A stretch of 48,779 bases of DNA. It comes from a virus. The position numbers were made by a program, and so were the translations under genes. The DNA lies in IMG/VR virus record IMGVR_UViG_3300042389_000320, positions 1 through 48,779 of that record; one strand, written 5' to 3'. Below are positions 20,204 through 40,742 of the stretch, piece after piece (within the stretch, counting starts at the first letter, position 1; every line of letters begins with the position of its first letter). Below the pieces are notes generated by a model. That model was not told the origin of the DNA, made no database searches, and was given only the letters and a program-made list of their open reading frames with translations.

Positions 20204-21919
20204 ATGATAAAATTTTCTAAGGTTAAATTTAAGAACTTTGGTTCTTTTGGTAATACCTTTACGGAATTGAATCTAGACAAAAATAATACCACTCTCATCT
20301 GCGGAAGCAATGGGAGTGGTAAGTCTTTTGCTTTTTTAGATTCTATTACTTTTGCTTTGTTTGGAAAACCATTTCGTAAGATTAATATTCCTCAACTTGC
20401 AAATTCTATTAATTCTAAAAATTGTTTAGTTGAAATTGAATTTGCAAAGGGCAATGAACAATATATTGTTCGTAGAGGATTAAACCCAAAGATATTTGAA
20501 ATTCATAGAAATGGTGAACTTCTAAATCAAGATGCCAAGAGTGTAGATTATCAGTCTGTTCTGGAAGAACAAATTCTTAAAATGAATTACAAAACATTCA
20601 CACAAGTGGTGATTCTTGGTAGTTCATCTTTTGTCCCTTTCATGCAATTAAATGCATCTGATCGCCGAGCAGTTATTGAAAATATTTTGGATATCAATGT
20701 TTTTAGTTCTATGAATATGATTTTGAAGGGAAAACTATCTGCTCTTAAAGAAAATCTTAGAGAGTTAAACAATAGTATAGAGATTCAAAAAGAAAAGATT
20801 AATTCAAAGAATGATCTAATCAATAGTTTAGAAACTAGAAGCAATAAAGATATAGAACATACCAATGAAAAGATTCAAAAGATAGAATCTGAATTGGCTG
20901 ATCTTTTACATGATATCTCTGAATTAGAAAAATCTATAGCAATTACACTGTCTTCTATAGAGGATAAAGATAATGTATTTGATAAGTTAACTGAAATTAA
21001 AACTCTTAAAACCAAGATTGGAGTTAACTTATCTTCGCTTTCTAAAGATATTAGTTTCTTTACAGAAAACGAAACATGTCCTTCTTGTTGTCAATCAATT
21101 ACTTCAGAAGTAAAGGAGAAGGAATTGAAGAAAAGAAATAAGAAGAAAGAAGAATACGAAAAAGCAATTTCTGAATTAGAAAAAACTATTCAGGAATATA
21201 ATGCTCGTGTTGAAGAAATTAATACTTCTTCTTCATTTGTTCAAACCAAGAACATTCAACTTCTTCAAAAGAAAACATCAATTGATAATGGAAAGAAGTT
21301 TCTAAAAACCCTTTCTGAAGATTTAAAAAAGGCAAATATTTCAACTGAAGAAATTATTCTAGAAAAGGGAAAGTTAGAATCCATGAAGGTTTCTTTAGTC
21401 GAAATGGAAACCAAGAAGATTGAAATGAAAGATGAGGAGCACTATTATCAATATGCTTCTGATCTTCTAAAGGACTCTGGAGTAAAGGCAAAGATTATCA
21501 AGTATTATCTTCCCTTTATGAATAAGTACATTAACAAGTTTTTAACTTCTATGGATTTCTTCGTGCAATTTATTTTAGATGAAGATTTTAATGAAACTAT
21601 TAAGAGTCGTCATCGGGATGAAATGAGTTATATGAATTTCAGCGAAGGTGAAAAGATGAGAATTGATTTGGCACTTTTACTTGCTTGGAGAGAAATTGCC
21701 AGGGCAAAGAATAGTGTTAATTGTAATCTTTTGATTCTTGATGAAGTATTTGATTCTTCTCTGGACACTTTAGGTATGGAAGAATTGATGAAACTTTTAA
21801 ATTCTGTAAGTGATAAATCGAACATCTATGTGATTAGTCACAAATCAGATCAACTTGCTGATAAGTTTCAAAATACAATTTCATTCGAAAAGAAAAACAA
21901 TTTTAGTAGAATGCTATGA
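20204..21919 (+). CDS. 46: Recombination endonuclease subunit gp46 (SbcC/Rad50-like)
   Basis: 571 aa (T4 gp46: 560 aa). Walker A is GSNGSGKS at 34-41. A coiled coil follows from about 180 to 450, broken by a zinc hook CPSC at 292-295 (a further Cys at 296). The ABC signature is FSEGEKMRIDLALLLA near 479-494 and Walker B is LLILDEVFD with D513/E514. It forms the ATP-driven clamp of the 46/47 nuclease. The stop overlaps the next ATG. Confidence 0.95.
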   Translation: MIKFSKVKFKNFGSFGNTFTELNLDKNNTTLICGSNGSGKSFAFLDSITFALFGKPFRKINIPQLANSINSKNCLVEIEFAKGNEQYIVRRGLNPKIFEIHRNGELLNQDAKSVDYQSVLEEQILKMNYKTFTQVVILGSSSFVPFMQLNASDRRAVIENILDINVFSSMNMILKGKLSALKENLRELNNSIEIQKEKINSKNDLINSLETRSNKDIEHTNEKIQKIESELADLLHDISELEKSIAITLSSIEDKDNVFDKLTEIKTLKTKIGVNLSSLSKDISFFTENETCPSCCQSITSEVKEKELKKRNKKKEEYEKAISELEKTIQEYNARVEEINTSSSFVQTKNIQLLQKKTSIDNGKKFLKTLSEDLKKANISTEEIILEKGKLESMKVSLVEMETKKIEMKDEEHYYQYASDLLKDSGVKAKIIKYYLPFMNKYINKFLTSMDFFVQFILDEDFNETIKSRHRDEMSYMNFSEGEKMRIDLALLLAWREIARAKNSVNCNLLILDEVFDSSLDTLGMEELMKLLNSVSDKSNIYVISHKSDQLADKFQNTISFEKKNNFSRML

Positions 21920-22647
21920 TTGATGAATTAAATCCCCCTCCTGTAATTATGGAACATGATGGATTTTTAGTAGTCCGTGATGATCTTATTGATGGTGGTT
22001 CAAAAACTAGATTTGTTCAATCGTTAGTGAAGGATTTTGTCGGCGATGAATTGGTTTATGGTTCTTCGCCTGCAACTGGTTATGCTCAGATATCGTTGGC
22101 AAGAGTATGTCAGCATTTCAATAAGAAATGTATATTGTTTATGGCAAAAAGAAAGATGGAGAATCTTCATCCTTACCAGTTGAAAGCAATATCATACGGT
22201 GCTACAATGAACTGGGTAGAGAACGGTATGCTATCTGTAACTCAGAAAAGAGCGCGTGATTATGTTAACTCAGATCCTTTTACTCGTAAATTGTTTCCTA
22301 TTGGGTTTGATTGTCCAGAGGTATTGGACTCCATACGGGATCTGGCTAGACAACTTCCTGTTCAACCGAAAGAAGTCTGGACAGTAGGATCGAGCGGAAC
22401 TCTAACTAGAGGATTACAGGCCGCATGGCCTAATGCTGAATTTAATTGTGTGTCTGTTGGTCATAAAATGGGGGCGAAGGAGTTAGGGAGAGCAAAAATG
22501 TTCAAGTGTGCCATTCCTTTCTTTCAGGCCGTCGCAGCGGCTGATGCTCCTCCCTTTCCTTCCGCCCCCACATATGACGCCAAAGCATGGGCCTTTATGA
22601 AACAATACGCAAAACCGGGTGCTCTGTTTTGGAATGTAGGCGCATGA
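21916..22647 (+). CDS. PLP-dependent enzyme-like protein (ACC deaminase / D-cysteine desulfhydrase fold)
   Basis: 243 aa, fold-type II PLP enzyme pattern in compact form. FLVVRDDLIDGGSKTRFV (17-34) contains the likely cofactor lysine K30, equal to the GGNKxRK motif of ACC deaminase-like proteins. A SSPATGYAQ segment stands where the substrate loop (GAxQSNH) lies, TVGSSGTLTRGL resembles the Gly-rich phosphate loop, and ALFWNVGA ends like the LFxHTGG terminus of that family. Relatives have about 330 aa, so parts of the small domain are reduced. It overlaps gp46 upstream and the methyltransferase downstream (ATGA each). The substrate is unknown. Confidence 0.65.
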   Translation: MIDELNPPPVIMEHDGFLVVRDDLIDGGSKTRFVQSLVKDFVGDELVYGSSPATGYAQISLARVCQHFNKKCILFMAKRKMENLHPYQLKAISYGATMNWVENGMLSVTQKRARDYVNSDPFTRKLFPIGFDCPEVLDSIRDLARQLPVQPKEVWTVGSSGTLTRGLQAAWPNAEFNCVSVGHKMGAKELGRAKMFKCAIPFFQAVAAADAPPFPSAPTYDAKAWAFMKQYAKPGALFWNVGA

Positions 22648-24200
22648 AACCATTTTACGAACGGAACGAATATGTTTTAAATAGTGATATCAATGTCTTT
22701 TATGAAGACATTGTTTCTATGACTGAACCCGAATTTGAAGATTGGGTCAAGAAGATGCGTAAAACTATTCTTGATATATGGGATACCTATGGTTGTCCCC
22801 CGCGTACTGGTAAAAACGAACAAGAAATAATTGATGAGTTTAATAAACTTGTTAGTTATCCGATTCATCAATTTGAATTTGTTGATGAGATAACCGGAAC
22901 AAAAGATGTAATTATCAATAAATCAAGAATTGGATCTGAAGCAGATCAGTTCTTTTCTAATATGTACAAGACCAGAATTAATTATAGCGAAAATGATACT
23001 GGTTACTCAATCTATGATTTATTTGCGGATGATAAGTATCTTCCTAGAATGATCAAGGGTGCAAAGAGACATATTCGTAGAGATTCCTTCTATAATTTTG
23101 CTCTATCTTCAATTAAGAACGATCCAAAATATTCAATCATTGATGTATCTACTGGCGACGAATGGATGGAAGCATTCTTTAGTAGTCCTGAAATATTTCA
23201 GGGTTATGATTTTATTCTAGAAAAGAACAAGAAGAAGAATGGACTGAATACTGGTTATTTTCAACTAGAACAATCTAGAATACTGTCTCTTGACAAAGAT
23301 TTATTTCTTAAGTGGAAATCTAAACTTTCTTATCGTCATTACTCAACCTTTGACATACATAACATCGAGAGTGATGATGTTTTCCATATTAGAGTGTATG
23401 AAAAGGGACAACGAATATTTCCAAAGTGTTTTCCTTCGTTTAGGATTGGTTATATTCAACCTGCGGTGAACTTCCCACCTCTTACTGCAAAGTTTCTTTA
23501 TGAAAAATATACTTCTCATATTACAGGAAATAAGTTACTTACTATTTACGACCCTTCTAGCGGTTGGGGTGGTCGTCTTCTCGGTTGCATGTCTATGTCT
23601 GATCGTGTTCGCATACACTATATCGGAACTGATCCAAATAGCGAAAACTGGTTTTCAGAGAATTCGTCAAAATACCACAACCTAGCAAACTTCTATAATA
23701 CTAGAACATATAGAGGTAACTCTTTCTTTAGCGACACCCATACCTTTGAGTTGTATCAGTATGGTTCTGAGGAAATAGGAAAACACATTTCAAAGGAAGT
23801 AGATCTTGTATTTACTTCTCCTCCCTATTTCAATAGAGAGGCATATTCAAATGATAATACACAGTCATATAAGAAGTTTTCTAATTATGATTCTTGGCGA
23901 GATGGATTTTTAAGACCGACACTAGAAACATGTGTTAAATGGTTGAAGAAAGATCGTTATCTTCTTTGGAATATTGCAGATATTCAAATTGGCGGTAAAT
24001 ATTTGCCACTAGAAAAAGATTCTAGAGATATTTTGGAAAGTTTGGGAATGAAATATGTCGAAACGATGAAGATGGCAATGGAAGGAATGCCGGGACAAAA
24101 TAGACTAGACTCAGACGGCAAACCAAAGTGTAAAAATTATTGCAAAGTTAATAATACATACTTGAAATACGAACCAGTTTTTGTATTCTATAAAGAGTAA
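22644..24200 (+). CDS. DNA amino-methyltransferase (N6-adenine or N4-cytosine type)
   Basis: 518 aa from ATG 22644, which overlaps the previous stop. The catalytic domain is C-terminal: AdoMet motif I YDPSSGWGGRLLG at about 302-314 and motif IV TSPPYF at 391-396, the signature of DNA amino-methylases. The motif order I before IV with a short gap resembles the gamma class. The first 300 residues are unassigned, mostly helical and basic, and may hold target recognition. No restriction enzyme gene is adjacent, so a solitary phage methylase that protects or marks its DNA is likely. The stop overlaps the next ATG (TAATG). Confidence 0.82.
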   Translation: MKPFYERNEYVLNSDINVFYEDIVSMTEPEFEDWVKKMRKTILDIWDTYGCPPRTGKNEQEIIDEFNKLVSYPIHQFEFVDEITGTKDVIINKSRIGSEADQFFSNMYKTRINYSENDTGYSIYDLFADDKYLPRMIKGAKRHIRRDSFYNFALSSIKNDPKYSIIDVSTGDEWMEAFFSSPEIFQGYDFILEKNKKKNGLNTGYFQLEQSRILSLDKDLFLKWKSKLSYRHYSTFDIHNIESDDVFHIRVYEKGQRIFPKCFPSFRIGYIQPAVNFPPLTAKFLYEKYTSHITGNKLLTIYDPSSGWGGRLLGCMSMSDRVRIHYIGTDPNSENWFSENSSKYHNLANFYNTRTYRGNSFFSDTHTFELYQYGSEEIGKHISKEVDLVFTSPPYFNREAYSNDNTQSYKKFSNYDSWRDGFLRPTLETCVKWLKKDRYLLWNIADIQIGGKYLPLEKDSRDILESLGMKYVETMKMAMEGMPGQNRLDSDGKPKCKNYCKVNNTYLKYEPVFVFYKE

Positions 24201-29501: not shown

Positions 29502-29526
29502 AACCCCGCGAAAGCGGGGTTTTTTT
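29502..29526 (+). terminator. Rho-independent terminator before regA
   Basis: Stem AACCCCGC (29502-29509) with GCGGGGTT (29514-29521), a GAAA tetraloop and a seven-T run (29520-29526). It ends the rnh-45-44-62 operon and separates it from regA. Confidence 0.93.
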
Positions 29527-29544: not shown

Positions 29545-29570
29545 TATAAATATTGCCGTAAATTACGGAG
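29545..29570 (+). promoter_or_regulatory. Late promoter and RBS hairpin of regA
   Basis: A perfect TATAAATA lies at 29545-29552. A short hairpin, CCGTA (29556-29560) with TACGG (29564-29568), overlaps the ACGGAG ribosome-binding site before the ATG at 29576. A late start near 29558 would fall in the 5' arm and open the hairpin, the same principle as at gp13 (both share TACGGAGAT). The stem is only 5 bp, so hairpin control is less sure here than at gp13. Confidence 0.65.
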
Positions 29571-29575
29571 ATATT

Positions 29576-29977
29576 ATGGAAAATGATGATGATATTTTTG
29601 ACGGATTGGGCGTTGAGATTAAACTCAAAAATAAAGAAGACTTCCTTAAGGTCAAGGAAACTCTTACTCGCCTAGGCGTCTCTTCCAAGCACGAAAAGAA
29701 ACTTTACCAATCTTGCCACATTCTACACAAACGTGGTAGATATGCCATTATGCATTTTAAAGAAATGTTCTTAATGGATGGACTAGAAAGCGATATAAGT
29801 GAAGAAGACGAAATGAGAAGAAATACAATTGTTAAACTTCTAGTCGATTGGGGTCTAGTTGAGGCAGTAGATCCAAGTGAATATGAAAAACAATTAAGTC
29901 TTGCTCGTTTAAAGATTATTTCGCATAAGGAGAAGGGAGACTGGGAACTCGTACCTAAATACCATATAGGAAGGTGA
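29576..29977 (+). CDS. regA: Translational repressor RegA
   Basis: 133 aa (T4 RegA: 122 aa). Very similar to T4 in EDFLKVKETLTRLGVSS, LYQSCHILHKRGRYAI, MHFKEMFLMDGLES and WELVPKYHIGR, including the Trp in LVDWGLVEA. RegA binds the start regions of many early mRNAs, including clamp and clamp-loader genes, and blocks ribosome binding. There is an extra acidic N-terminus of about 12 residues (MENDDDIFDGLG) before the T4-equivalent start. The good ribosome-binding site supports this longer form. Confidence 0.95.
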   Translation: MENDDDIFDGLGVEIKLKNKEDFLKVKETLTRLGVSSKHEKKLYQSCHILHKRGRYAIMHFKEMFLMDGLESDISEEDEMRRNTIVKLLVDWGLVEAVDPSEYEKQLSLARLKIISHKEKGDWELVPKYHIGR

Positions 29978-29984
29978 TATTTTT

Positions 29985-30839
29985 ATGAATGAGATACAAG
30001 CGATAGGCGCTCCGTTTCCAGTTGAATATTCTTCGTGTTCGAATAAACTACCAGAACTTTTTAGATGGACTGATCAGGATAGACCAATAAAGGTTTATAT
30101 TGATCGTGGTATTGCTTTGGGATTACAAGAACCAAAGAAAGAAGGAGAGAAAAAAATAGCATGGGTTTGTGAATCTAGGGCTATATTTCATCTTTCCTTC
30201 CCGCGAGAGTTATTTGAAAAAGAGTTGAAAAAAATAAGTGAGTCTTTTGATTATGTTTTTGTTTCAGAGCGAAGTTTATGCAAATATCCAAACATACTCT
30301 ATAGTCCGGCCGGTAGCAATTTACCTTGGTTGAGCATTTATAGAGATCTACCATTGAAAACTAAAAATGTTTCTTTGATTGCTTCTCCTAAAAAAATAAC
30401 ATTTGGACATGCAATCCGACATATAGTAGCAGAAAAGTTCAAAGATGTTATTGATGTCTATGGTGGCGCAGCTGGCACCACAAGATTTGGTTATGGTGAG
30501 AATATTTGGCCAGATAAATCTAACGCAACAGTTCCATATAGATTTTCTATAGTGATCGAAAATGATTCATATTCGACATACTATACAGAAAAGATAACAG
30601 ATTGTTTCGCATCTGGTACTATACCAATTTACTGGGGAGCACCCGATATATCTGAACACTTTAATTCAGATGGAATAATTCAATTGACTTCTGACTTTGA
30701 TCCTATTATACTTACTCCAGAATTATATGAAAGTAAGTTAGAGGCAGTTAAGGACAATTTAGAAAGAGTTAAATTACTAAAGTCTTCAGACGATATTCTT
30801 TATACTAATATTATTAAAAATGAAAATAGAAGTGTCTAA
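29985..30839 (+). CDS. Glycosyltransferase family 10 (fucosyltransferase-like)
   Basis: 284 aa. The C-terminal half has the GT10 signature: YRFSIVIENDSYSTYYTEKI, then TDCFASGTIPIYWGAPDI, as in alpha-1,3/4-fucosyltransferases that use GDP-fucose. The N-terminal half (WVCESRAIFHLSFPREL, FDYVFVSERSL) is like bacterial and phage GT10 members. It opens the glycan island, 7 bases after regA, and overlaps the next gene by 20 bases. A cytoplasmic enzyme is expected, as no signal peptide is seen. Confidence 0.85.
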   Translation: MNEIQAIGAPFPVEYSSCSNKLPELFRWTDQDRPIKVYIDRGIALGLQEPKKEGEKKIAWVCESRAIFHLSFPRELFEKELKKISESFDYVFVSERSLCKYPNILYSPAGSNLPWLSIYRDLPLKTKNVSLIASPKKITFGHAIRHIVAEKFKDVIDVYGGAAGTTRFGYGENIWPDKSNATVPYRFSIVIENDSYSTYYTEKITDCFASGTIPIYWGAPDISEHFNSDGIIQLTSDFDPIILTPELYESKLEAVKDNLERVKLLKSSDDILYTNIIKNENRSV

Positions 30840-31200
30840 TGGTGAGATTGTAGACAAATATACAATTTTAAAAATTAAAATAAGAAAAGCGATTCCATTT
30901 TCCATGAAGTATTTTAATATTCATGAGGAGTATAATGCAATTAAACCACTAGTGGATCAGTTGCACATTGATGAAGAAATATTAGAATCTCTTTACACCA
31001 CTAATTTAGAATTATGGGAAATAGAAGATAAATTAAGAATCAAAGAAAGTCAAAACACATTTGATGATGAGTTTATTTTGCTATCACGATCTGTTTATAA
31101 AATTAACGACAAGAGATATTCCATAAAACAAAAAATTAATGAAATAACTAATAGTCTCTTAAAAGAAGAAAAAATATTACCAAGATATAAAAATGACTAA
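30820..31200 (+). CDS. DUF6165-like protein of glycan loci
   Basis: 126 aa. The N-terminus MKIEVSNGEIVDKYTILKI is the conserved opening of DUF6165-type proteins that accompany glycosyltransferases in bacterial surface-glycan loci and some phages. The rest is helical and charged. Its biochemical role is not known. It overlaps the genes on both sides. Confidence 0.65.
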   Translation: MKIEVSNGEIVDKYTILKIKIRKAIPFSMKYFNIHEEYNAIKPLVDQLHIDEEILESLYTTNLELWEIEDKLRIKESQNTFDDEFILLSRSVYKINDKRYSIKQKINEITNSLLKEEKILPRYKND

Positions 31201-31963
31201 GCGGATAGCATTAATTGATCAGGCTAGAGGATTGGGGGACATCTTCTTTTTGCAGAAAGCAGTATATGAGATATCAGAAAGAATGGATAATATTATTTGG
31301 CCAATACATCCAAAATATAATTATCTTCACGAATATTTGATAACTCCCAAGACTTCATATTTTAGTTTTCCGTTGAACGAGGCAGAGTTCAGCGAGAGTG
31401 TCAAAATATGGCATAAGGTTTTGTATGATAATTATAAATCAAATACATTTAGTAGCACTCCCGTTAGTGGTGGTGTAATTCACTATTATCCATTTAGAAC
31501 ATCTTCATTTAATTCAAATGATATAGACATTATGTATTCAAAATATAAAATATTGAATATATCCTTTGATGATTGGCAGAAATATTTTCAATTTAAGAGA
31601 AAATTAGACAGAGAAGATTCTCTTAGAAAGAAATATGGGATTGAAAGGGGAGAGAAGTTTATATTTGTAAATACCATGTATTTCACTAGTCCATACAATA
31701 CTTACAAAATAAATTTGGAAAGTGAATATAAAATTATATACAATGACGGATCCCCCTGTCACATATTTGATTTTTGTTGGTTGTTGGAAAACGCACAAGA
31801 GATTCATACAGTCGAAACTTCAATGTGTTATCTTGTTGAAGTTCTAAATACTACTGACAAAATTTACTGTTATCCCAGATTACGAAAAGGTGGTGAAAAA
31901 ATGTATCAAAATTTTGACTACATTAATAAAATATTTAAGAAAAATTGGAACTATATTCAATGA
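31193..31963 (+). CDS. Probable GT-B glycosyltransferase (heptosyltransferase-like)
   Basis: 256 aa. The opening LIDQARGLGDIFFLQKAVYE resembles the N-terminal GLGD loop of the GT9 (ADP-heptose transferase) fold, and the C-terminal HIFDFCWLLENAQEIHTVET with SMCYLVEVLN resembles the sugar-nucleotide-binding end where such enzymes have a (D/E)TS motif. The middle is divergent. The substrate cannot be told. It overlaps its neighbours by a few bases within the island. Confidence 0.5.
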   Translation: MTKRIALIDQARGLGDIFFLQKAVYEISERMDNIIWPIHPKYNYLHEYLITPKTSYFSFPLNEAEFSESVKIWHKVLYDNYKSNTFSSTPVSGGVIHYYPFRTSSFNSNDIDIMYSKYKILNISFDDWQKYFQFKRKLDREDSLRKKYGIERGEKFIFVNTMYFTSPYNTYKINLESEYKIIYNDGSPCHIFDFCWLLENAQEIHTVETSMCYLVEVLNTTDKIYCYPRLRKGGEKMYQNFDYINKIFKKNWNYIQ

Positions 31964-32622
31964 AAACTGAAATTATATCATTTTTTTCCGACATAGATGG
32001 ACACACTTATTATAGTGATCATGCTGCTCGTTTAGCAAAAAACTGCGAAGAGCATAATATCCCCTATGACATAAGAAAGTTAGAGAGTAGTGGTAGTTAT
32101 AGAATGAATTGTTTAAGAAAACCAGAATTTATTTTAACCATGCTTAAACTTAAAAATAAACCTATAGTTTGGTTAGATATAGATTCTTTGATTCATAATG
32201 AACTTAGCATATTTGATGATAAAGAAAATCACTGTGATATGATATTTGCTTATTCTGGCATTACTCCATCGATGATCGATGTTAAACTACCAAAGGCTTC
32301 ACCAATATATCTAACACCAAAACCTATAGTATTTGAATTTCTTGAGTTTTGGGTTGATAAGTGTCATTATAATGCTTCCAATACTGGTCCGAAAGTATTT
32401 GATCACGAAGTGCTATTGTTTGATGTTTTACCGGAGTTTCTTAAGAGATTGAGACTAGGAGTATTACCAGTAAATTATGCAATCTGGCCAACAGATAAAC
32501 TACCTCCGGAAATGAAACCATACATAACTATGGGTATAGCAGATAATAAATCCAAGGAATTATCTTTGAGAGAAATGGGATTTAGTGAATCTGCTATAAA
32601 GTTTAATCTATTGAAAATTTAA
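31960..32622 (+). CDS. GT-A fold glycosyltransferase-like protein
   Basis: 220 aa from ATG 31960, which overlaps the previous stop (an in-frame TTG at 31945 is less likely). KPIVWLDIDSLIHNELSIF at about 70-88 contains the DxD motif used by GT-A enzymes for metal and sugar-nucleotide binding. Flanking parts (RKPEFILTMLKLKNKP, FDHEVLLFDVLPEF) match nucleotide-diphospho-sugar transferases. The acceptor is unknown. Confidence 0.65.
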   Translation: MKTEIISFFSDIDGHTYYSDHAARLAKNCEEHNIPYDIRKLESSGSYRMNCLRKPEFILTMLKLKNKPIVWLDIDSLIHNELSIFDDKENHCDMIFAYSGITPSMIDVKLPKASPIYLTPKPIVFEFLEFWVDKCHYNASNTGPKVFDHEVLLFDVLPEFLKRLRLGVLPVNYAIWPTDKLPPEMKPYITMGIADNKSKELSLREMGFSESAIKFNLLKI

Positions 32623-32625
32623 ATT

Positions 32626-33435
32626 ATGAGAAACCTTATATTAAATTATTGGAAATCAGAAAACGAGGAAAGATCTATAGAAGTAGATAGATGTATAAAA
32701 CAGAATTTAGAATCAAAATTATTTGATAGATTGATATTTTTTGTTATAGATTCTCAAAAAGATCATTTACTTTCTATATTTAACAATATTGATTATGGAA
32801 ACATTCAAGTGAAAATATTTAATTCATTTGAACCCTCTATAACATATCAAAAAATTATTGATATATGCAATACAGTTGTAGGTACAGAAGATGTAAATAT
32901 TTTATCTAATAGTGATATTGTATTCGATGAAACTATAAAATTAGCAGACATGATATCGACAAAGGAAATCTATGCTCTGACCAGATATAATGATGATATA
33001 TTGGATTGGCATGTACCACCTGCACCTGAATATGCTACCGATTCTCAGGATGTTTGGATATGGAAAGGAATTAATGTTTTAAATTCCGAAATTCCAATTT
33101 ATATGGGAGTTCCTGGGTGCGATAATAGAATATCATATGATTTTTTTATATCGGGTTATGTTGTTCGTAATCCTTGTCTGAGTATTAAGACACATCATGT
33201 TCATAAAACAAATAGTAGACCAGGAACATCTACTGATATTTCTAAGAGGATAATGTATCCATATTTATTTTTGAAACCAACAAAGTTGGGTGATTTTTAT
33301 GGATCATATCTTTCATTACACAACTCAATTACATATCAAATATTAGAAAATGAAATTAAAAAAAACAACCTAGAAGATCAGGTTCATGTTGCTCTTAAAG
33401 AATTTTATAAAACAATTATGGAAACTTACAAATGA
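32626..33435 (+). CDS. Putative glycosyltransferase of the island
   Basis: 269 aa. VNILSNSDIVFDETIKL near 100-115 has a SxxDI element where GT-A enzymes have DxD. QDVWIWKGINVL, MGVPGCDNRISYDFFISGY and NPCLSIKTHHVH form a C-terminal part like that of galactosyltransferase-type GT2 enzymes (conserved D-W and G-D-R/H groups). The exact family is not certain. It begins four bases after the previous gene and overlaps the next. Confidence 0.55.
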   Translation: MRNLILNYWKSENEERSIEVDRCIKQNLESKLFDRLIFFVIDSQKDHLLSIFNNIDYGNIQVKIFNSFEPSITYQKIIDICNTVVGTEDVNILSNSDIVFDETIKLADMISTKEIYALTRYNDDILDWHVPPAPEYATDSQDVWIWKGINVLNSEIPIYMGVPGCDNRISYDFFISGYVVRNPCLSIKTHHVHKTNSRPGTSTDISKRIMYPYLFLKPTKLGDFYGSYLSLHNSITYQILENEIKKNNLEDQVHVALKEFYKTIMETYK

Positions 33436-34091
33436 AATTATATACCTTTTATACCGATTCACACAAAATACTTTTTGATGACTGGTTTTTGCCATCATTT
33501 ACTTCTACAAATAAAAATATAGAACTAATAACAACTAAATTTGATCAACACTGTAAGAGTGGAAATTTTATGGAAGAAGGATGGATGAGGTCAATGCACG
33601 ATAAGATCGATTTGGTAATAAGGGGCATTGAGGAAAATTGGAATGAATATTTTATTCATTCCGATTGCGATGTTCAATTTTTTGGAGATATCAAGTCCGA
33701 TTTACTTGAACAGGTTCAAGATTATGATTTAGCCGGAACCAATGATAATCCATTTGATCCAAATTCACATATATGTTGTGGTTTCTTTATATGTAAAGGC
33801 AATGATAAAACTTTATCTATGTTCAAAGAAATTAAGAAAATAATGAATCAACAATATAATGATCAAATTGTTCTTAATATGATTAAAGATAGATTTATAA
33901 CTAGCAAAAAGTTAAATTATAAACATTATAATGTAATATATTCAAATGGTCCTAGAGTTTGGAGTCCTGAGATGGGGGTGACACATGTTGATCCTTCAAT
34001 TTTAACCCACCATGCAAATTGGATAATAGGAATTGAAAATAAGATTACAAATTTAAAATTAGTTAAAGAGTTAGTAGAAAAAAATAGATAA
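33432..34091 (+). CDS. GT-A nucleotide-diphospho-sugar transferase
   Basis: 219 aa. YFIHSDCDVQFFGDIKSDLL (about 73-92) carries the DxD motif. DYDLAGTNDN, CCGFFICKGNDKTL and YNDQIVLNMI follow the order in PF03407-type transferases: post-DxD aspartates, a Gly-Phe-Phe strand and a DQ motif. It is closely similar in architecture to the protein at 31960. The sugar and acceptor are unknown. Confidence 0.68.
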   Translation: MKLYTFYTDSHKILFDDWFLPSFTSTNKNIELITTKFDQHCKSGNFMEEGWMRSMHDKIDLVIRGIEENWNEYFIHSDCDVQFFGDIKSDLLEQVQDYDLAGTNDNPFDPNSHICCGFFICKGNDKTLSMFKEIKKIMNQQYNDQIVLNMIKDRFITSKKLNYKHYNVIYSNGPRVWSPEMGVTHVDPSILTHHANWIIGIENKITNLKLVKELVEKNR

Positions 34092-34108
34092 TACTGGACT
34101 AATGAATA

Positions 34109-34960
34109 ATGTTATTAAGTGATCCAAATTATCTTAGACCAAATCCAAATTATCCAGTTTATCCGCCATATCATGATGGACTATACTTGGAGGATTATTT
34201 TATTAATTATTGGAAAAATCACGAAGTAAATACTAGCAAGCAGTTCATTGCAGTTTCTTGGACTAGTTATTATAATAATGGATTGAATAGAAGTATTTTG
34301 CAAAATTACTTAGATTCCTTAGATACTAGTAAAGAGTATTTTATCGTTTGTCAGCACGATGATGCACCATTGGAAAGATTACCACCAAATACTATTGTTT
34401 TTTGTGCCGGTGGAAACTACTTAGGATCTAATAAAATTTCAATTCCTTTAATTTGTTCTCAAATTCCTAAACAACTCATACCACATAATAACAACAAAGA
34501 TATTTTTTGTTCCTTTGTTGGATCGATGACACATCCGATACGAAACTCTATAATAGAAAATTATAAAGATAATTTAAATTTTGTTCTGAACTATACTGGA
34601 TGGAATGCTAGAGTGTCTGGTGATTCTTTGAGGAATTTTATTGATATTACAACTAGAAGTAAATATACTCTATGTCCTAGAGGTTATGGAACTAGTAGTT
34701 TTAGATTGTATGAAACTATGCAACTAAATAGTGTTCCTGTTTATGTTAGTGACGTTCACGATTTACCTTGGTCGGATGAACTAGATTGGAATGAGTTTTG
34801 TGTAATTGTAAAACAACATGAAATTTCAAATATACATGAAATATTGAGTTCAATAGATGATACTAAATATCATAGTATGCTAATGAAACTTAAAAGCGTG
34901 TATGATGAATATTTTACTTTAAATGGTGTTTGTGGAAATATAATAAGGAAAATAAAATGA
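34109..34960 (+). CDS. Exostosin-family (GT47-like) glycosyltransferase
   Basis: 283 aa. The C-terminal exostosin motif is clear: SKYTLCPRGYGTSSFRLYE, then TMQLNSVPVYVSDVHDLPWS and WNEFCVIV. Upstream, CSFVGSMTHPIRNSII is the usual start of the nucleotide-binding half. GT47-like enzymes in bacteria and phages build surface glycans. It overlaps the next gene by four bases (ATGA). Confidence 0.8.
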   Translation: MLLSDPNYLRPNPNYPVYPPYHDGLYLEDYFINYWKNHEVNTSKQFIAVSWTSYYNNGLNRSILQNYLDSLDTSKEYFIVCQHDDAPLERLPPNTIVFCAGGNYLGSNKISIPLICSQIPKQLIPHNNNKDIFCSFVGSMTHPIRNSIIENYKDNLNFVLNYTGWNARVSGDSLRNFIDITTRSKYTLCPRGYGTSSFRLYETMQLNSVPVYVSDVHDLPWSDELDWNEFCVIVKQHEISNIHEILSSIDDTKYHSMLMKLKSVYDEYFTLNGVCGNIIRKIK

Positions 34961-35568
34961 CAGAATTATGTACTATAATGGCGGAAGAAGGAAGCGATAA
35001 GAGCGATATTAGTTCAAGACATCATAACTATACCATAGAATATAATCTTCTTTTTAAGGATAAAAGGGACAAAATAAGAACAGTTTTTGAAGTAGGTCTG
35101 GGGACAAATTACACCGATGTTAAATCGTCTATGGGCCCCAATGGAATTCCAGGAGCATCGTTGCGAGGATGGAAAAGATATTTTAAAAATGCAAATATTT
35201 ATGGTGCAGACATAGATAAAAGAATTTTATTCACTGAAGATAGAATTAAAACATATTATGTCGATCAAACGAATAAAAACTCTATAGATGAATTATGGAA
35301 AATAGAAGAGTTATCAACTCTATTCGATATCATCATTGACGATGGACTTCATGAAATAAATGCAAATTTAACATTTTTAGAAAATTCTTTACACAAATTA
35401 AAACAAGATGGAATTTATATTATAGAAGATATAGTTTTTACTATGGTAGCAGAATATAAATCCAGATTGGATGAATTAAAACAAAAAATAAATTTTGATT
35501 ACAGTGTAAAAATTCTTGATCACCATACAAATAAAAGTGATAATTGTTTAATAATAATTACAAAATAG
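34957..35568 (+). CDS. Class I SAM-dependent methyltransferase (MycE/sugar O-methylase-like)
   Basis: 203 aa from ATG 34957 overlapping the exostosin stop. Motif I is TVFEVGLGTNYTDV; GPNGIPGASLRGWKRYF and ANIYGADIDKRILF follow, then LFDIIIDDGLHEINANLTFL and GIYIIEDI. This set, with the D-D-G-x-H motif, is typical of macrocin/mycinose-type sugar O-methyltransferases. Within a glycan island it probably methylates a sugar hydroxyl. Confidence 0.72.
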   Translation: MTELCTIMAEEGSDKSDISSRHHNYTIEYNLLFKDKRDKIRTVFEVGLGTNYTDVKSSMGPNGIPGASLRGWKRYFKNANIYGADIDKRILFTEDRIKTYYVDQTNKNSIDELWKIEELSTLFDIIIDDGLHEINANLTFLENSLHKLKQDGIYIIEDIVFTMVAEYKSRLDELKQKINFDYSVKILDHHTNKSDNCLIIITK

Positions 35569-35576
35569 TAAATAAT

Positions 35577-36086
35577 ATGGAAAAACCAAATTTAAATTGT
35601 AGAAGAATGCCAGAAGTTACTGATCCTTATTGGGATTCTGTAAATTCTTTACACGGTTTGGATGAATTATGTTCTGATTATTTAGATAAAACAAAAACAG
35701 TTTTAGAATTGGGAACTTATGAGGGCGCAAGTACAAAACTTTTTGCATATTATGCAAAACATGTTACAACTGTAGATATTATAAAAAAATCAAATATAGA
35801 TTCATTATTAAATGAATATAATAATATAAATTTTATTCAAGGTGAAACACAAGATATACTTTCAAAATTAAATATAAAATATGATTTAATTTATATAGAT
35901 GCTGATCATAGTTATAATAATATCAAACAAGATATTTTAGGTAGTATTAATTTACTAAATGAAAATGGGATAATTTCTGGCCACGATTATGATAATTATA
36001 CAAAAAATGATGTATTTGTAGTTGTAAATGAATTTTTCCCAAAAATAAAAATATACAGTGATCAAAGTTGGGTTGCATTAAGATGA
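35577..36086 (+). CDS. Class I methyltransferase (Methyltransf_24 type)
   Basis: 169 aa from ATG 35577. Motif I is TVLELGTYEGASTKLFAYY, then HVTTVDI, YDLIYIDADHSYNNIKQDIL and GIISGHDYDNYTKNDVF. The IDADHSY and GHDY pair mark the Methyltransf_24 family, often linked to glycan or small-molecule methylation. The N-terminal 30 residues name no family. It is paralogous to the gene at 36239, from which a 152-base gap separates it. Confidence 0.72.
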   Translation: MEKPNLNCRRMPEVTDPYWDSVNSLHGLDELCSDYLDKTKTVLELGTYEGASTKLFAYYAKHVTTVDIIKKSNIDSLLNEYNNINFIQGETQDILSKLNIKYDLIYIDADHSYNNIKQDILGSINLLNENGIISGHDYDNYTKNDVFVVVNEFFPKIKIYSDQSWVALR

Positions 36087-36225
36087 TGCCTGTTATTTTT
36101 ATAGTATTACAAATAATAATGAAAAAATAAAAATGAATAGTATCCATTGTCAAGGATATACTAAAGACTTTATGAAAACAATAAAAAATATTTATAGCGA
36201 TAATATAGAATTACATTTAAGGTAA
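36082..36225 (+). pseudogene. Possible gene remnant between two methyltransferase genes
   Basis: The 152-base gap 36087-36238 has one frame open over 47 codons (36082-36222, stop at 36223) that reads like protein (YSITNNNEKIK, then SIHCQGYTKDFMKTIKN) but has no start at its beginning. An internal ATG at 36133 would give 30 aa without a ribosome-binding site. The composition is like that of the island. It may be the 3' end of a decayed gene, perhaps lost in a duplication of methyltransferase genes; chance cannot be excluded in such AT-rich DNA. Confidence 0.35.
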
Positions 36226-36238
36226 ACAAAAATAAACA

Positions 36239-36787
36239 ATGCAACACATCTATAATAATGATTCATTTGGTGAAAATTGGTTTAGTTATCCTAATTTATA
36301 TTCTTATGTGGTAAATAAGTTTCCTTCCGGATCACATTTTGTTGAAGTGGGATCTTGGAAAGGTAAGTCTTCTGCATATATGGCTGTAGAAATAGCGAAT
36401 AGCAATAAAAACATAAAATTTGATTGCGTTGATACATGGAGAGGTTCCATTGAACACGAAAACATTGATATCGAACAACTCTATAATACCTTTTTGAGTA
36501 ATATGAAACCAGTTGCTGATTATTATTCGCATCATAGAATGACTAGTGTAGAGGCATCTAAATTATATGAAAATAATTCTTTAGATTTTGTTTTCATTGA
36601 TGCATGTCACGAATATGAATGTGTGAAGGAAGATATTATTTCCTGGCTTCCAAAAATAAAAAATGGTGGTGTTATTGCTGGGCACGATTATATTCCTGAA
36701 TTTTTTGGTGTTGTTATGGCGGTCAATGAGATTTTGGTAGGAAAACAATTAAAATTTCAAGAAAGATGCTGGATTTATCAACTATGA
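36239..36787 (+). CDS. Class I methyltransferase (Methyltransf_24 type), second copy
   Basis: 182 aa. SHFVEVGSWKGKSSAYMAV is motif I; FDCVDTWRGS, LDFVFIDACHEYECVKEDI and GGVIAGHDYIPEFFGV follow, the same order as in the gene at 35577 but with low identity, so they are related but diverged. VDTW is frequent in sugar O-methylases of this group. The ATG at 36239 has no strong ribosome-binding site. The stop overlaps the next ATG. Confidence 0.75.
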   Translation: MQHIYNNDSFGENWFSYPNLYSYVVNKFPSGSHFVEVGSWKGKSSAYMAVEIANSNKNIKFDCVDTWRGSIEHENIDIEQLYNTFLSNMKPVADYYSHHRMTSVEASKLYENNSLDFVFIDACHEYECVKEDIISWLPKIKNGGVIAGHDYIPEFFGVVMAVNEILVGKQLKFQERCWIYQL

Positions 36788-37542
36788 TAATAGAAATACA
36801 TCCATATGAGGGCGAACAAAATAATGTTGGTTTGTGTAATAAATTAAGAACTATAATTAGTTATCTTTATTATTGTGACATTAAAGACTATAAATTAAAA
36901 GTAGTTTGGGATTATTTCTATACTTTATTTCCCACGATACTAGATAATTCATTGTTTACTATGGAACAATCTAATATTAGTTATGGACCTCCTTTATTTT
37001 ACCCGTTAGGTGAATCTAATAATTATAGAGGCGGTTGTAATTGCGATATATCTGTTGATTTTTATTCAAAAATATTTCCTTTTGGAAAATATTTTAATAT
37101 GCTGATTCCCAATCACGAAATTAAACAGACAATAGATAGTTTTCAAAATCTAGAACACTCATTTGGCGTTCACATCAGACAAACTGATTTTATACACTTT
37201 TCTAAAAGTAATGGATTATTTCTTCCAACAGTTGATGATTATATTAAAAAAATTGATGTCTTATTGGAAGAAAATAATTCATTTTATTTTACAACAGACG
37301 AATCAGCAACATACAAAACTATAAAAGATAGATATGGATCTAAAGTTTTTTATATCGAAAGTAAAGAACTAAATCGAAATAATGTAAAATGTTTTGATTA
37401 TGCCTATATTGATTGTGTTCTTTTAAGTAAAACTAAATTTATTCTAGGTAATGTAAATAGTTCCTTTTCATATCTTTCTTCAAAAATTTCAAATAAAAAA
37501 TTAATAACATACAATGGATCTGGGTGGAGTGAGTATGTTTAA
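36784..37542 (+). CDS. Fucosyltransferase-like protein (GT11/GT23/O-FucT superfamily)
   Basis: 252 aa from ATG 36784 overlapping the upstream stop (ATGA). FGVHIRQTDFIHFSKSN contains the HxR-x-x-D motif that binds GDP-fucose in alpha-1,2, alpha-1,6 and protein O-fucosyltransferases. NSFYFTTDESATYKTIK and TKFILGNVNSSFSYLSS match the following motifs II and III. With the GT10 gene at 29985 it makes a second candidate fucosyl step in the island. Confidence 0.72.
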   Translation: MIIEIHPYEGEQNNVGLCNKLRTIISYLYYCDIKDYKLKVVWDYFYTLFPTILDNSLFTMEQSNISYGPPLFYPLGESNNYRGGCNCDISVDFYSKIFPFGKYFNMLIPNHEIKQTIDSFQNLEHSFGVHIRQTDFIHFSKSNGLFLPTVDDYIKKIDVLLEENNSFYFTTDESATYKTIKDRYGSKVFYIESKELNRNNVKCFDYAYIDCVLLSKTKFILGNVNSSFSYLSSKISNKKLITYNGSGWSEYV

Positions 37543-37546
37543 TCAA

Positions 37547-37576
37547 TTGTTAATCGTTATTTGTATTGCATACATA
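37547..37576 (+). promoter_or_regulatory. Possible promoter before the GT2 gene
   Basis: In the 52-base gap 37543-37594 there is TTGTTA (37547-37552), followed 17 bases later by ATACAT with TG before it (extended -10). The same spot contains CATACATA (37569-37576), one mismatch from the late core, so the class of promoter is open. AAAGGA at 37581-37586 provides the ribosome-binding site of the next gene. Confidence 0.3.
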
Positions 37577-37594
37577 TAGTAAAGGATTTATATA

Positions 37595-38776
37595 ATGCTA
37601 CCAAAAATTACACTATGCATGATCGTGAAGAATGAATCGCACATTATAGAAGAATGTTTAAACTCTGTTTACAAATATATCAATTATTGGGTTATTTGTG
37701 ATACTGGTTCTACTGATAATACTAAAGAAATAATTAAGAAGTTTTTTGAAGAAAAAAATATTCCCGGTGAACTTCACGATCACGAGTGGAAGGGATTCGG
37801 ATACAATAGAACTTTAGCTTTTGATGTAGCAAAAGGTAAAGCTGAGTATGCGTTGGTAATAGATGCAGATGATTATATTCATGGTACATTACCAATTTCT
37901 AATGTCACCAATCATGATGGTTACACTTTGAAAATGGGAAGAGAAGAGTTTTCTTGGTGGAGAACTCAAATTTTTAAATTAGATCTTGATTGGGAGTATG
38001 TTGGAGTTTTACATGAATATGCAAAACCAAGAAACAAGGATCTACCGCAACTTGCAAAGTTAGATGGAAATTATAGAGTTGTTGCTAGAACTCTTGGTGC
38101 TAGAAATCAAAATATAACTCCTGTTGAAAAATACTCAAGAGATGCAGAAATATTGGAGAAAGCATTAATAGATGAACCAAATAACACTAGGTATATGTTT
38201 TACCTTGCACAGAGTTATTTTGATTCACAGCAGTGGGCAAAATCAGAAGAAGCATATACACGGAGAGCATTGGCGGGCCAGTGGCCAGAGGAAGTATATT
38301 ACTCTTTGTTAAGAGTTGCACAATGCAAAGCAATGCAGGAAAAACCTTGGCCCGAAATACAACAAGCATTCTTGGACGCTTATAACTATAGGCCAACTAG
38401 AGCAGAACCACTATATCATTTAGCACAAATTTACAGGCTTAAATATAATCAACCTGTTCTTGCTTATCTTTTTGCAAAAATGGCACTCGACATTCCTTTC
38501 CCGAAGGATGACATTCTTTTCGTCCCAAATGCCATATATGATTGGGGTGTTGCTGATGAGATCAGTAGTACTGCATTTTATGCTGGATATCCGCTGATTG
38601 GATATGAAGTTACAAGAAAACTATTACAAAGTGGAAAAGTTCCAAAGGAACATCTTGAAAGAATTCAAAAAAACTATGTTTCATATGTTGAGGTAGTTGA
38701 GCAATTGATTAAAAAGGGAATTCTGAAAGCAGAAGATGCCCCAGAGGGTATTAATGCTAAAAGTAAATATAAATAA
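37595..38776 (+). CDS. Glycosyltransferase family 2 with TPR-like C-terminus
   Basis: 393 aa. GT2 domain: ITLCMIVKNESHIIEECLNS, VICDTGSTDNTKEII (nucleotide-binding DTGS) and ALVIDADDYIHG (DxD at about 90); GVLHEYA follows. Residues 190-300 are repeated helices (NTRYMFYLAQSYFDSQQW, KSEEAYTRRALAG, AEPLYHLAQIYRL) of TPR type. This GT2-TPR layout is common in phages and large viruses and resembles enzymes that process protein or lipid-linked glycans. It has its own leader and closes the island, followed by a late promoter. Confidence 0.85.
   Translation: MLPKITLCMIVKNESHIIEECLNSVYKYINYWVICDTGSTDNTKEIIKKFFEEKNIPGELHDHEWKGFGYNRTLAFDVAKGKAEYALVIDADDYIHGTLPISNVTNHDGYTLKMGREEFSWWRTQIFKLDLDWEYVGVLHEYAKPRNKDLPQLAKLDGNYRVVARTLGARNQNITPVEKYSRDAEILEKALIDEPNNTRYMFYLAQSYFDSQQWAKSEEAYTRRALAGQWPEEVYYSLLRVAQCKAMQEKPWPEIQQAFLDAYNYRPTRAEPLYHLAQIYRLKYNQPVLAYLFAKMALDIPFPKDDILFVPNAIYDWGVADEISSTAFYAGYPLIGYEVTRKLLQSGKVPKEHLERIQKNYVSYVEVVEQLIKKGILKAEDAPEGINAKSKYK
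38768..38775 (+). promoter_or_regulatory. Late promoter TATAAATA before the fibre module
   Basis: A perfect T4 late box overlaps the last codons of the GT2 gene. The expected start is near 38781, followed by AGGGAG and the ATG at 38794. It should drive the tail-fibre genes. Confidence 0.8.
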
Positions 38777-38793: not shown

Positions 38794-39225
38794 ATGCCAG
38801 CATCAAGATACGACATATACGCAGAACAGGGTAGTACATTTAAATTACATCTTGACTATAAGTATGCCGGTGGAACTGGTATTAATTTGAATGGGTTTCA
38901 TGGTAACATGCAAGTTAGAAAGTCCGATAAAGATTCTAACATGTTACTTTTCCTCAGTGACTATGGTTTAACCGGTGGCGGCACTACCGGATATTTCTAT
39001 GGTTCTACAGGAGGTGTAGCCGGTGTTGGAGGTATAAGTTTCAACACATCGACTACTGGCGCGACTGGATATACTGGTGGAATATTCTTAAGAGTAGATA
39101 GCACTACAATGAAAAATGTTCCATCTGGTAAGCACTTTTATGATTTTGAAATTATTAACACCCTTGGTGAAGTTTATAGATTAGTGGAAGGATCATTCGA
39201 GGTTTCTAGAGAAATTACGAGATAA
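38794..39225 (+). CDS. Small virion adaptor-like protein
   Basis: 143 aa with GGGAG in the leader. The N-terminus ([21 protein letters not shown]) and the end ([20 protein letters not shown]) resemble beta-sandwich proteins of phage baseplates and fibres (BppU-like, with a Q-G-x-T-F-x-L start), interrupted by a Gly/Thr-rich segment ([15 protein letters not shown]). It is likely a fibre-attachment or baseplate component. It lies two bases before the collagen-like gene. Confidence 0.65.
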
Positions 39226-39227
39226 AA

Positions 39228-40742
<1,515 letters not shown>

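Follow-up and report, generated by a model that had tools for sequence, protein, structure and literature searches.

The window analysed here is a 48,779-base IMG/VR record (IMGVR_UViG_3300042389_000320, taken at its whole length), a fragment of a T4-like phage genome. Twelve same-strand open reading frames, mostly overlapping or abutting, fill its positions 29985-38776 between regA and the tail-fibre genes (Table 1), a region which a sequence-only reading had described as a glycan island of eight glycosyltransferase-like genes, three methylase-like enzymes and a DUF6165 protein. The island is real and intact. Dozens of uncultured T4-like phages keep a locus at this place, between regA and the tail-fibre genes, and the island represents one of its alleles; conserved end enzymes enclose middle genes that are swapped as cassettes.

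Independent support was obtained for nine of the twelve genes. The GT10, Nucleotid_trans, GT47 and GT2-TPR enzymes and the DUF6165 protein are recognized by profile, as are the three Methyltransf_24-type methyltransferases (two by Pfam, the third by PHROG), and a further enzyme has a GT6-like fold in its predicted model. The other three glycosyltransferase calls (“GT-B” at 31193, “GT-A” at 32626, and “O-FucT-like” at 36784) stay motif-only, with no match for these proteins in Pfam, NCBIfam, or PDB sequences; the last also lacks homologues among the fetched loci. At the left end, the GT10 protein scores 27.9 bits against a Pfam cut-off of 23.9, and its profile matches an alpha1,3-fucosyltransferase structure (2e-15). 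The GT6-fold enzyme has no Pfam or other profile match and no tblastn match among 50,697 phage records, and in a Foldseek comparison its AlphaFold model matched the GT6 enzyme BoGT6a (1e-8) and A064R of the chlorovirus PBCV-1 (4e-8). Where they could be checked, catalytic motifs are conserved rather than broken: the GT10 signature YTEK...PIYWG is present, with E202 and K203 among the columns invariant across 36 relatives, the DADD motif of GT2-TPR (D90 A91 D92 D93) is invariant, and the GT47 and methyltransferase motifs are intact in the window proteins. The DUF6165 protein additionally has a weak DUF4254 match (E 0.005); its gene, found in 6 of 30 compared islands, recurs mostly beside a gene of the 31193 type.

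Table 1. Features of the island and its flanks in the window
Feature	Position	Strand	Support
Intrinsic-terminator-like hairpin plus T-run, just upstream of regA	29503..29526	+	CCCCGCGAAAGCGGGGTTTTTTT, read in sequence; similar in close relatives
T4-type late-promoter motif TATAAATA, upstream of regA and island	29545..29552	+	exact at same place in 36/57 relatives
regA, left flank of locus	29576..29977	+	Pfam Translat_reg 1e-42
GT10 fucosyltransferase-like enzyme, conserved left end	29985..30839	+	Pfam GT10 E 2e-6
DUF6165 protein	30820..31200	+	Pfam DUF6165 4e-12
GT-B-like protein, motif only	31193..31963	+	9 homologues in sibling islands; no profile match
GT-A enzyme, GT6-like fold, conserved left end	31960..32622	+	AlphaFold pLDDT 94.9
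Putative GT-A, motif only, variable cassette	32626..33435	+	sibling-island homologues with conserved NSD, QDVWIW motifs; no profile match
Nucleotid_trans glycosyltransferase (PF03407), variable cassette	33432..34091	+	Pfam 3e-12
GT47 exostosin-like glycosyltransferase, variable cassette	34109..34960	+	Pfam Exostosin_GT47 1e-20
Class-I methyltransferase	34957..35568	+	PHROG methyltransferase 3e-8; Pfam Methyltransf_24 0.0015, below cut-off
Methyltransf_24 methyltransferase	35577..36086	+	Pfam 1e-14
Methyltransf_24 methyltransferase	36239..36787	+	Pfam 3e-20
Putative fucosyltransferase-like protein	36784..37542	+	HxRxxD motif by eye only
GT2-TPR enzyme, conserved right end, proposed protein O-glycosyltransferase priming the glycan	37595..38776	+	Pfam GT2/TPR 6e-14
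Late-promoter motif TATAAATA, island/tail boundary at GT2-TPR end	38768..38775	+	exact 15/48, relaxed 43/48 relatives
Small tail-associated protein, right flank	38794..39225	+	PHROG “L-shaped tail fiber protein assembly” 1e-7
Collagen-like tail-fibre protein, proposed acceptor	39228..40742	+	Pfam Collagen 4e-26; PHROG tail fiber protein

Profiles recognize terminase, portal, major head protein, gp47, gp45, and regA elsewhere in the window, and its gp55 matches T4-like late sigma factors. Among sequenced phages, the best matches reach only 50-60% identity and come from pelagiphages, Methylophilales phages, cyanophages, and Sinorhizobium phages, and GenBank phages hold no close DNA relative, the single match being 38 bp in regA. 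A cyanophage origin was rejected: the photosystem reaction-centre gene (PF00124) is absent from all 11 large, incomplete sibling records (64-157 kb), and a cyanobacterial host is therefore not indicated. Further upstream, a threonine-dehydratase-labelled protein and, after it, a DNA-methyltransferase-like protein (21916-24200) are kept in only part of the lineage.

The sequence-only reading had proposed a search for islands with the same gene set in other phages; what we found in related phages is the same locus filled with different sugar genes. Among 80 relatives collected through regA, which is the terminal gene of the gp45-gp44-gp62-regA cluster and forms the left flank, nearly all with enough sequence show the order regA, GT10, GT6-fold enzyme, sometimes with one or two genes in between, and GT10 adjoins regA in nearly all of them. 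Thirteen sibling islands could be traced to the right end, and in these GT2-TPR is the last gene before the tail genes. Complete islands span 8.8-16.5 kb with 10-19 genes, and the 362 island genes of 30 contigs fall into 117 clusters, 70 of them singletons. Representative middle genes encode GMD, an RfbH-like dehydratase, GDP-fucose-synthase-like reductases, and NeuB-like, acetolactate-synthase-like, and AroB-related enzymes, besides FkbM methyltransferases, WavE, and GT34-like transferases; GT47 homologues occur in many siblings. The RfbH-like (L013:15347-16699), acetolactate-synthase-like (L043:16928-18682), NeuB-like (L033:17693-18799), and AroB-related (TIGR04425; L088:13522-14535) enzymes point to unusual deoxy or branched sugars. 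Relatives of individual enzymes also occur outside this setting, namely of GT10 or GT47 in the Synechococcus phages S-T4 and S-SKS1 (L103, L104), where they cluster with heptose or GDP-fucose synthesis genes away from regA, and of GT47, GT10, and GT2-TPR in the 735-kb uncultured phage LR756501.

This variability bears on the origin of the sugar donors. As the sequence-only reading had said, no sugar-nucleotide synthesis gene lies within the island of this window. Its further conclusion that the donors have to come from the host lacks a firm basis, since 12 of the 13 sibling islands encode an SDR-type sugar-nucleotide enzyme, which makes the absence peculiar to the window allele, and since a 48.8-kb fragment is uninformative about the rest of the genome.

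Exchange of the middle genes is seen in both directions. Contig L013 matches the window at 99.2% identity for 13,043 bp, as far as the end of the fourth island gene, and is unrelated beyond; the crossover sits at the 3' end of the GT6-fold gene, past which L013 encodes a GT10-GT2 fusion, a GT2-like protein, an RfbH-like enzyme, and another transferase-like protein. Similarly, contigs c021093 (L019/L107) and c020183 (L022/L106) have different middles between an identical regA (100%) and a first tail protein that is 99% identical. The converse is found in c032312 (L087) and c017766 (L044/L165): the proteins of six shared middle genes are 91-99% identical, whereas the core genes of the two contigs (gp46, gp45, gp44, gp62, and regA) are mostly 56-75% identical and their island-end enzymes (GT10, GT6-fold, and GT2-TPR) 52-60%. 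Thus, one backbone carries different cassettes, and one cassette sits on different backbones.

The enzyme that closes every traced island combines a Pfam GT2 catalytic domain with TPR, seen as helical repeats in the predicted model. Its closest solved relatives by sequence are Listeria GmaR (1e-15) and the S-glycosyltransferases SunS (3e-12) and ThuS, of which SunS/ThuS were also matched by fold (SunS, 5e-17). Membership in the SunS family (TIGR04195) was rejected, as 51 bits against a curated cut-off of 350 makes GT2-TPR a relative only. By sequence and model, GT2-TPR thus resembles protein glycosyltransferases of the GmaR/SunS type and is a candidate for such an enzyme. The second gene after it encodes a collagen-like tail fibre whose Gly-X-Thr tracts, 20, 19, and 23 triplets long, have threonine at 85, 58, and 65% of their Y positions.

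A similar neighbourhood recurs in cellular genomes. In 80 loci of cellular GT2-TPR relatives, retrieved without reference to collagen (L190-L269), 31 include a Gly-X-Y tract rich in threonine somewhere in the fetched sequence, compared with 1 of 80 reversed sequences. In a subset of 39 genomes, chosen after a first look and hence not blind, 17 have such a tract near GT2-TPR where at most about 1.03 would be expected. The association suggests that GT2-TPR may represent a general family of collagen-repeat glycosyltransferases. Loci of Streptomyces, Rhizobiales, and Bacillus are among those with Thr-rich collagen-like genes. The isolated jumbo phage Tunturi_5 of Tunturiibacter (L270, 6001-13017) encodes a 36%-identical GT2-TPR a few kilobases from a tail fibre whose Gly-X-Thr tract has 27 triplets.

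The island also lies between two copies of TATAAATA, which we take to be the late promoter established for T4. Of 57 relatives, 36 have the exact motif ahead of regA, and 15 of 48 have it at the island/tail boundary, compared with 8 of 310 island-internal junctions, several of these internal sites standing just before GT2-TPR; for a relaxed form the counts are 54/57, 43/48, and 16/310. Sigma-70-like sites were near chance level and were set aside. While additional, earlier promoters may exist, late expression would fit modification of the virion best.

Taken together, we hold it probable that the island is an allele of a modular, late-expressed virion-glycosylation locus acting on the phage's own collagen-like tail fibres. 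Because the unit is bounded by late-promoter motifs, its enzymes would probably be made alongside virion proteins. The chain would most likely be started by GT2-TPR, which would link a sugar straight to Ser/Thr residues of virion proteins, with the Thr-rich Gly-X-Thr repeats of the fibre just downstream as the best candidate acceptor; cytoplasmic extension by GT10, the GT6-fold enzyme, and the cassette glycosyltransferases might follow, and the methyltransferases might modify or cap the chain. With the middle cassette presumably exchanged by recombination against the conserved ends, closely related phages would carry different surface glycans. The enzyme activities, the acceptor, the order of assembly, and any benefit to the phage are what we infer from gene content and arrangement.

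Several observations weigh against this proposal. GT2-TPR is only about 20% identical to SunS. The exact TATAAATA occurs 8 times in the window where 7.8 are expected, so the count was rejected as evidence by itself and only the placement of the motif across relatives is informative; moreover, the placement counts are not independent, because the compared phages are related. Gly-X-Thr tracts are widespread across phage tail-fibre families, and of the 42 phage loci whose downstream sequence reaches 1.5 kb or more, 9 have no Gly-X-Thr triplets there, several of them having Thr-poor collagen tracts only. A strict rule that a Gly-X-Thr fibre always follows was accordingly dropped, and the acceptor either varies between phages or is another protein. 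Finally, hypervariable islands rich in glycosyltransferases have been interpreted in published work on pelagimyophages as modifying the host O-chain (PMC7029224).

That reading leads to the alternative that the enzymes remodel the surface glycan of the infected host (lipopolysaccharide O-chain or capsule), either excluding other phages or stopping progeny from re-adsorbing to debris. Many cassette enzymes indeed come from O-antigen families (RfbH, GMD, WavE, NeuB-like), and they could still act on lipid-linked intermediates of the host. However, a hydrophobic 19-mer was found in only 2 of the 362 island proteins, and with almost no membrane proteins the islands therefore have no flippase or polymerase; likewise, the lipid-linked initiating transferases PF02397 and PF00953 were not found in the 11 incomplete sibling records. 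The hallmark of O-antigen and serotype-conversion cassettes (flippase, polymerase, lipid-linked initiating transferase) is thus missing from the islands and these records, which argues against a phage-exported polysaccharide. Since late-promoter motifs also suit superinfection exclusion poorly and the fixed right-end enzyme resembles protein-modifying enzymes, we regard remodelling of the host surface as unlikely.

Alternatively, the virion may be glycosylated on its capsid or another protein, the adjacency to tail fibres being incidental. Capsid and tail-tube proteins are glycosylated in PBCV-1 and mycobacteriophages, the left-end enzyme folds like A064R, which builds part of the PBCV-1 capsid glycan, and the loci devoid of Gly-X-Thr tracts would be accounted for. 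In contrast, every complete island has GT2-TPR on the side of the tail genes, and collagen-like genes often adjoin the cellular relatives of this enzyme, which makes an acceptor in the capsid or in a protein other than the fibre decidedly improbable in our view. Glycosylation of phage DNA, as by the T4 glucosyltransferases, is very improbable: the backbone is T4-like, Shewanella phage Thanatos is reported to have pentose-modified cytosine (PMC12838424), and one PHROG label of the island methyltransferases is “DNA methyltransferase,” but the thymidylate-synthase/dCMP-hydroxymethylase family (PF00303) is absent from the 11 incomplete sibling records, no T4 glucosyltransferase family is among the Pfam matches of the window island proteins, a dozen variable sugar enzymes and methyltransferases far exceed what DNA glycosylation needs, and late motifs would put expression after most replication. 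Hence, among the three targets offered by the sequence-only reading (virion, DNA, or host surface), the virion is favoured by the protein-type glycosyltransferase at the tail end, the late motifs, and the lack of flippase, polymerase, and lipid-carrier enzymes, and DNA is disfavoured.

Building on glycosylation of the phage's own fibres, it is tempting to speculate, with chances that we put somewhat short of even, that T4-like phages of aquatic bacteria possess a serotype locus. Here, fixed priming and core enzymes would flank movable cassettes, some with sugar-nucleotide pathways, that switch the glycan of a collagen-like fibre, and GT2-TPR would be a threonine O-glycosyltransferase of collagen repeats from a family shared with bacteria. 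Glycosyltransferase-rich islands of aquatic T4-like phages have so far been read as host-surface tools. If phages instead carry swappable glycans on their own fibres, sugar chemistry would join adhesin sequence as a source of diversity in their surface identity, something like a bacterial “serotype” for phages, with consequences for adsorption and phage recognition. The genomic link between GT2-TPR and Thr-rich collagen-like genes across bacteria also offers a testable function for an uncharacterized enzyme family.

Among known systems, the host recognition cluster of pelagimyophages and cyanomyophages is a hypervariable island of T4-like phages of aquatic bacteria that likewise combines glycosyltransferases and tail fibres, and the window shows the same hallmark of multiple glycosyltransferases in a variable region beside the tail fibres of a T4-like genome. 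That cluster lies between VrlC and gp14 and is described as gradually diverging (PMC7029224). The present locus begins next to regA; its end enzymes, GT2-TPR among them, are fixed, and its middle is exchanged in cassettes. In mycobacteriophages Che8, Corndog, and Myrna, proteins of the capsid and tail tube are modified by glycosyltransferases that the phages encode (Freeman et al. 2023, as cited in PMC12363180); that secondary account describes few enzymes and no swappable locus of 10-19 genes. GmaR, which is also an anti-repressor (PMC9638930), and SunS/ThuS differ from GT2-TPR in their acceptors and share only about 20% identity with it. By gene arrangement, the locus resembles Clostridioides difficile SgtA, encoded directly upstream of bclA3, which adds beta-O-GlcNAc to threonine of collagen-like repeats (PMC7157674); unlike here, the acceptor is a bacterial spore protein, and glycan-extension enzymes are not known for SgtA-BclA3. 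In PBCV-1, virus-encoded glycosyltransferases and methyltransferases (A064R, A061L) build a methylated virion-protein glycan that defines antigenic classes (PMC9614988), and the left-end GT6-fold enzyme of the window shares the fold of A064R domain 1, yet PBCV-1 is a eukaryotic virus with a capsid N-glycan whose variants arise by mutation rather than cassette exchange. Set against the literature searched, in which we met no earlier description of them, the architecture of fixed ends and swappable middle starting at regA, the two-way evidence for cassette exchange, and the link between GT2-TPR and collagen-like genes are new.

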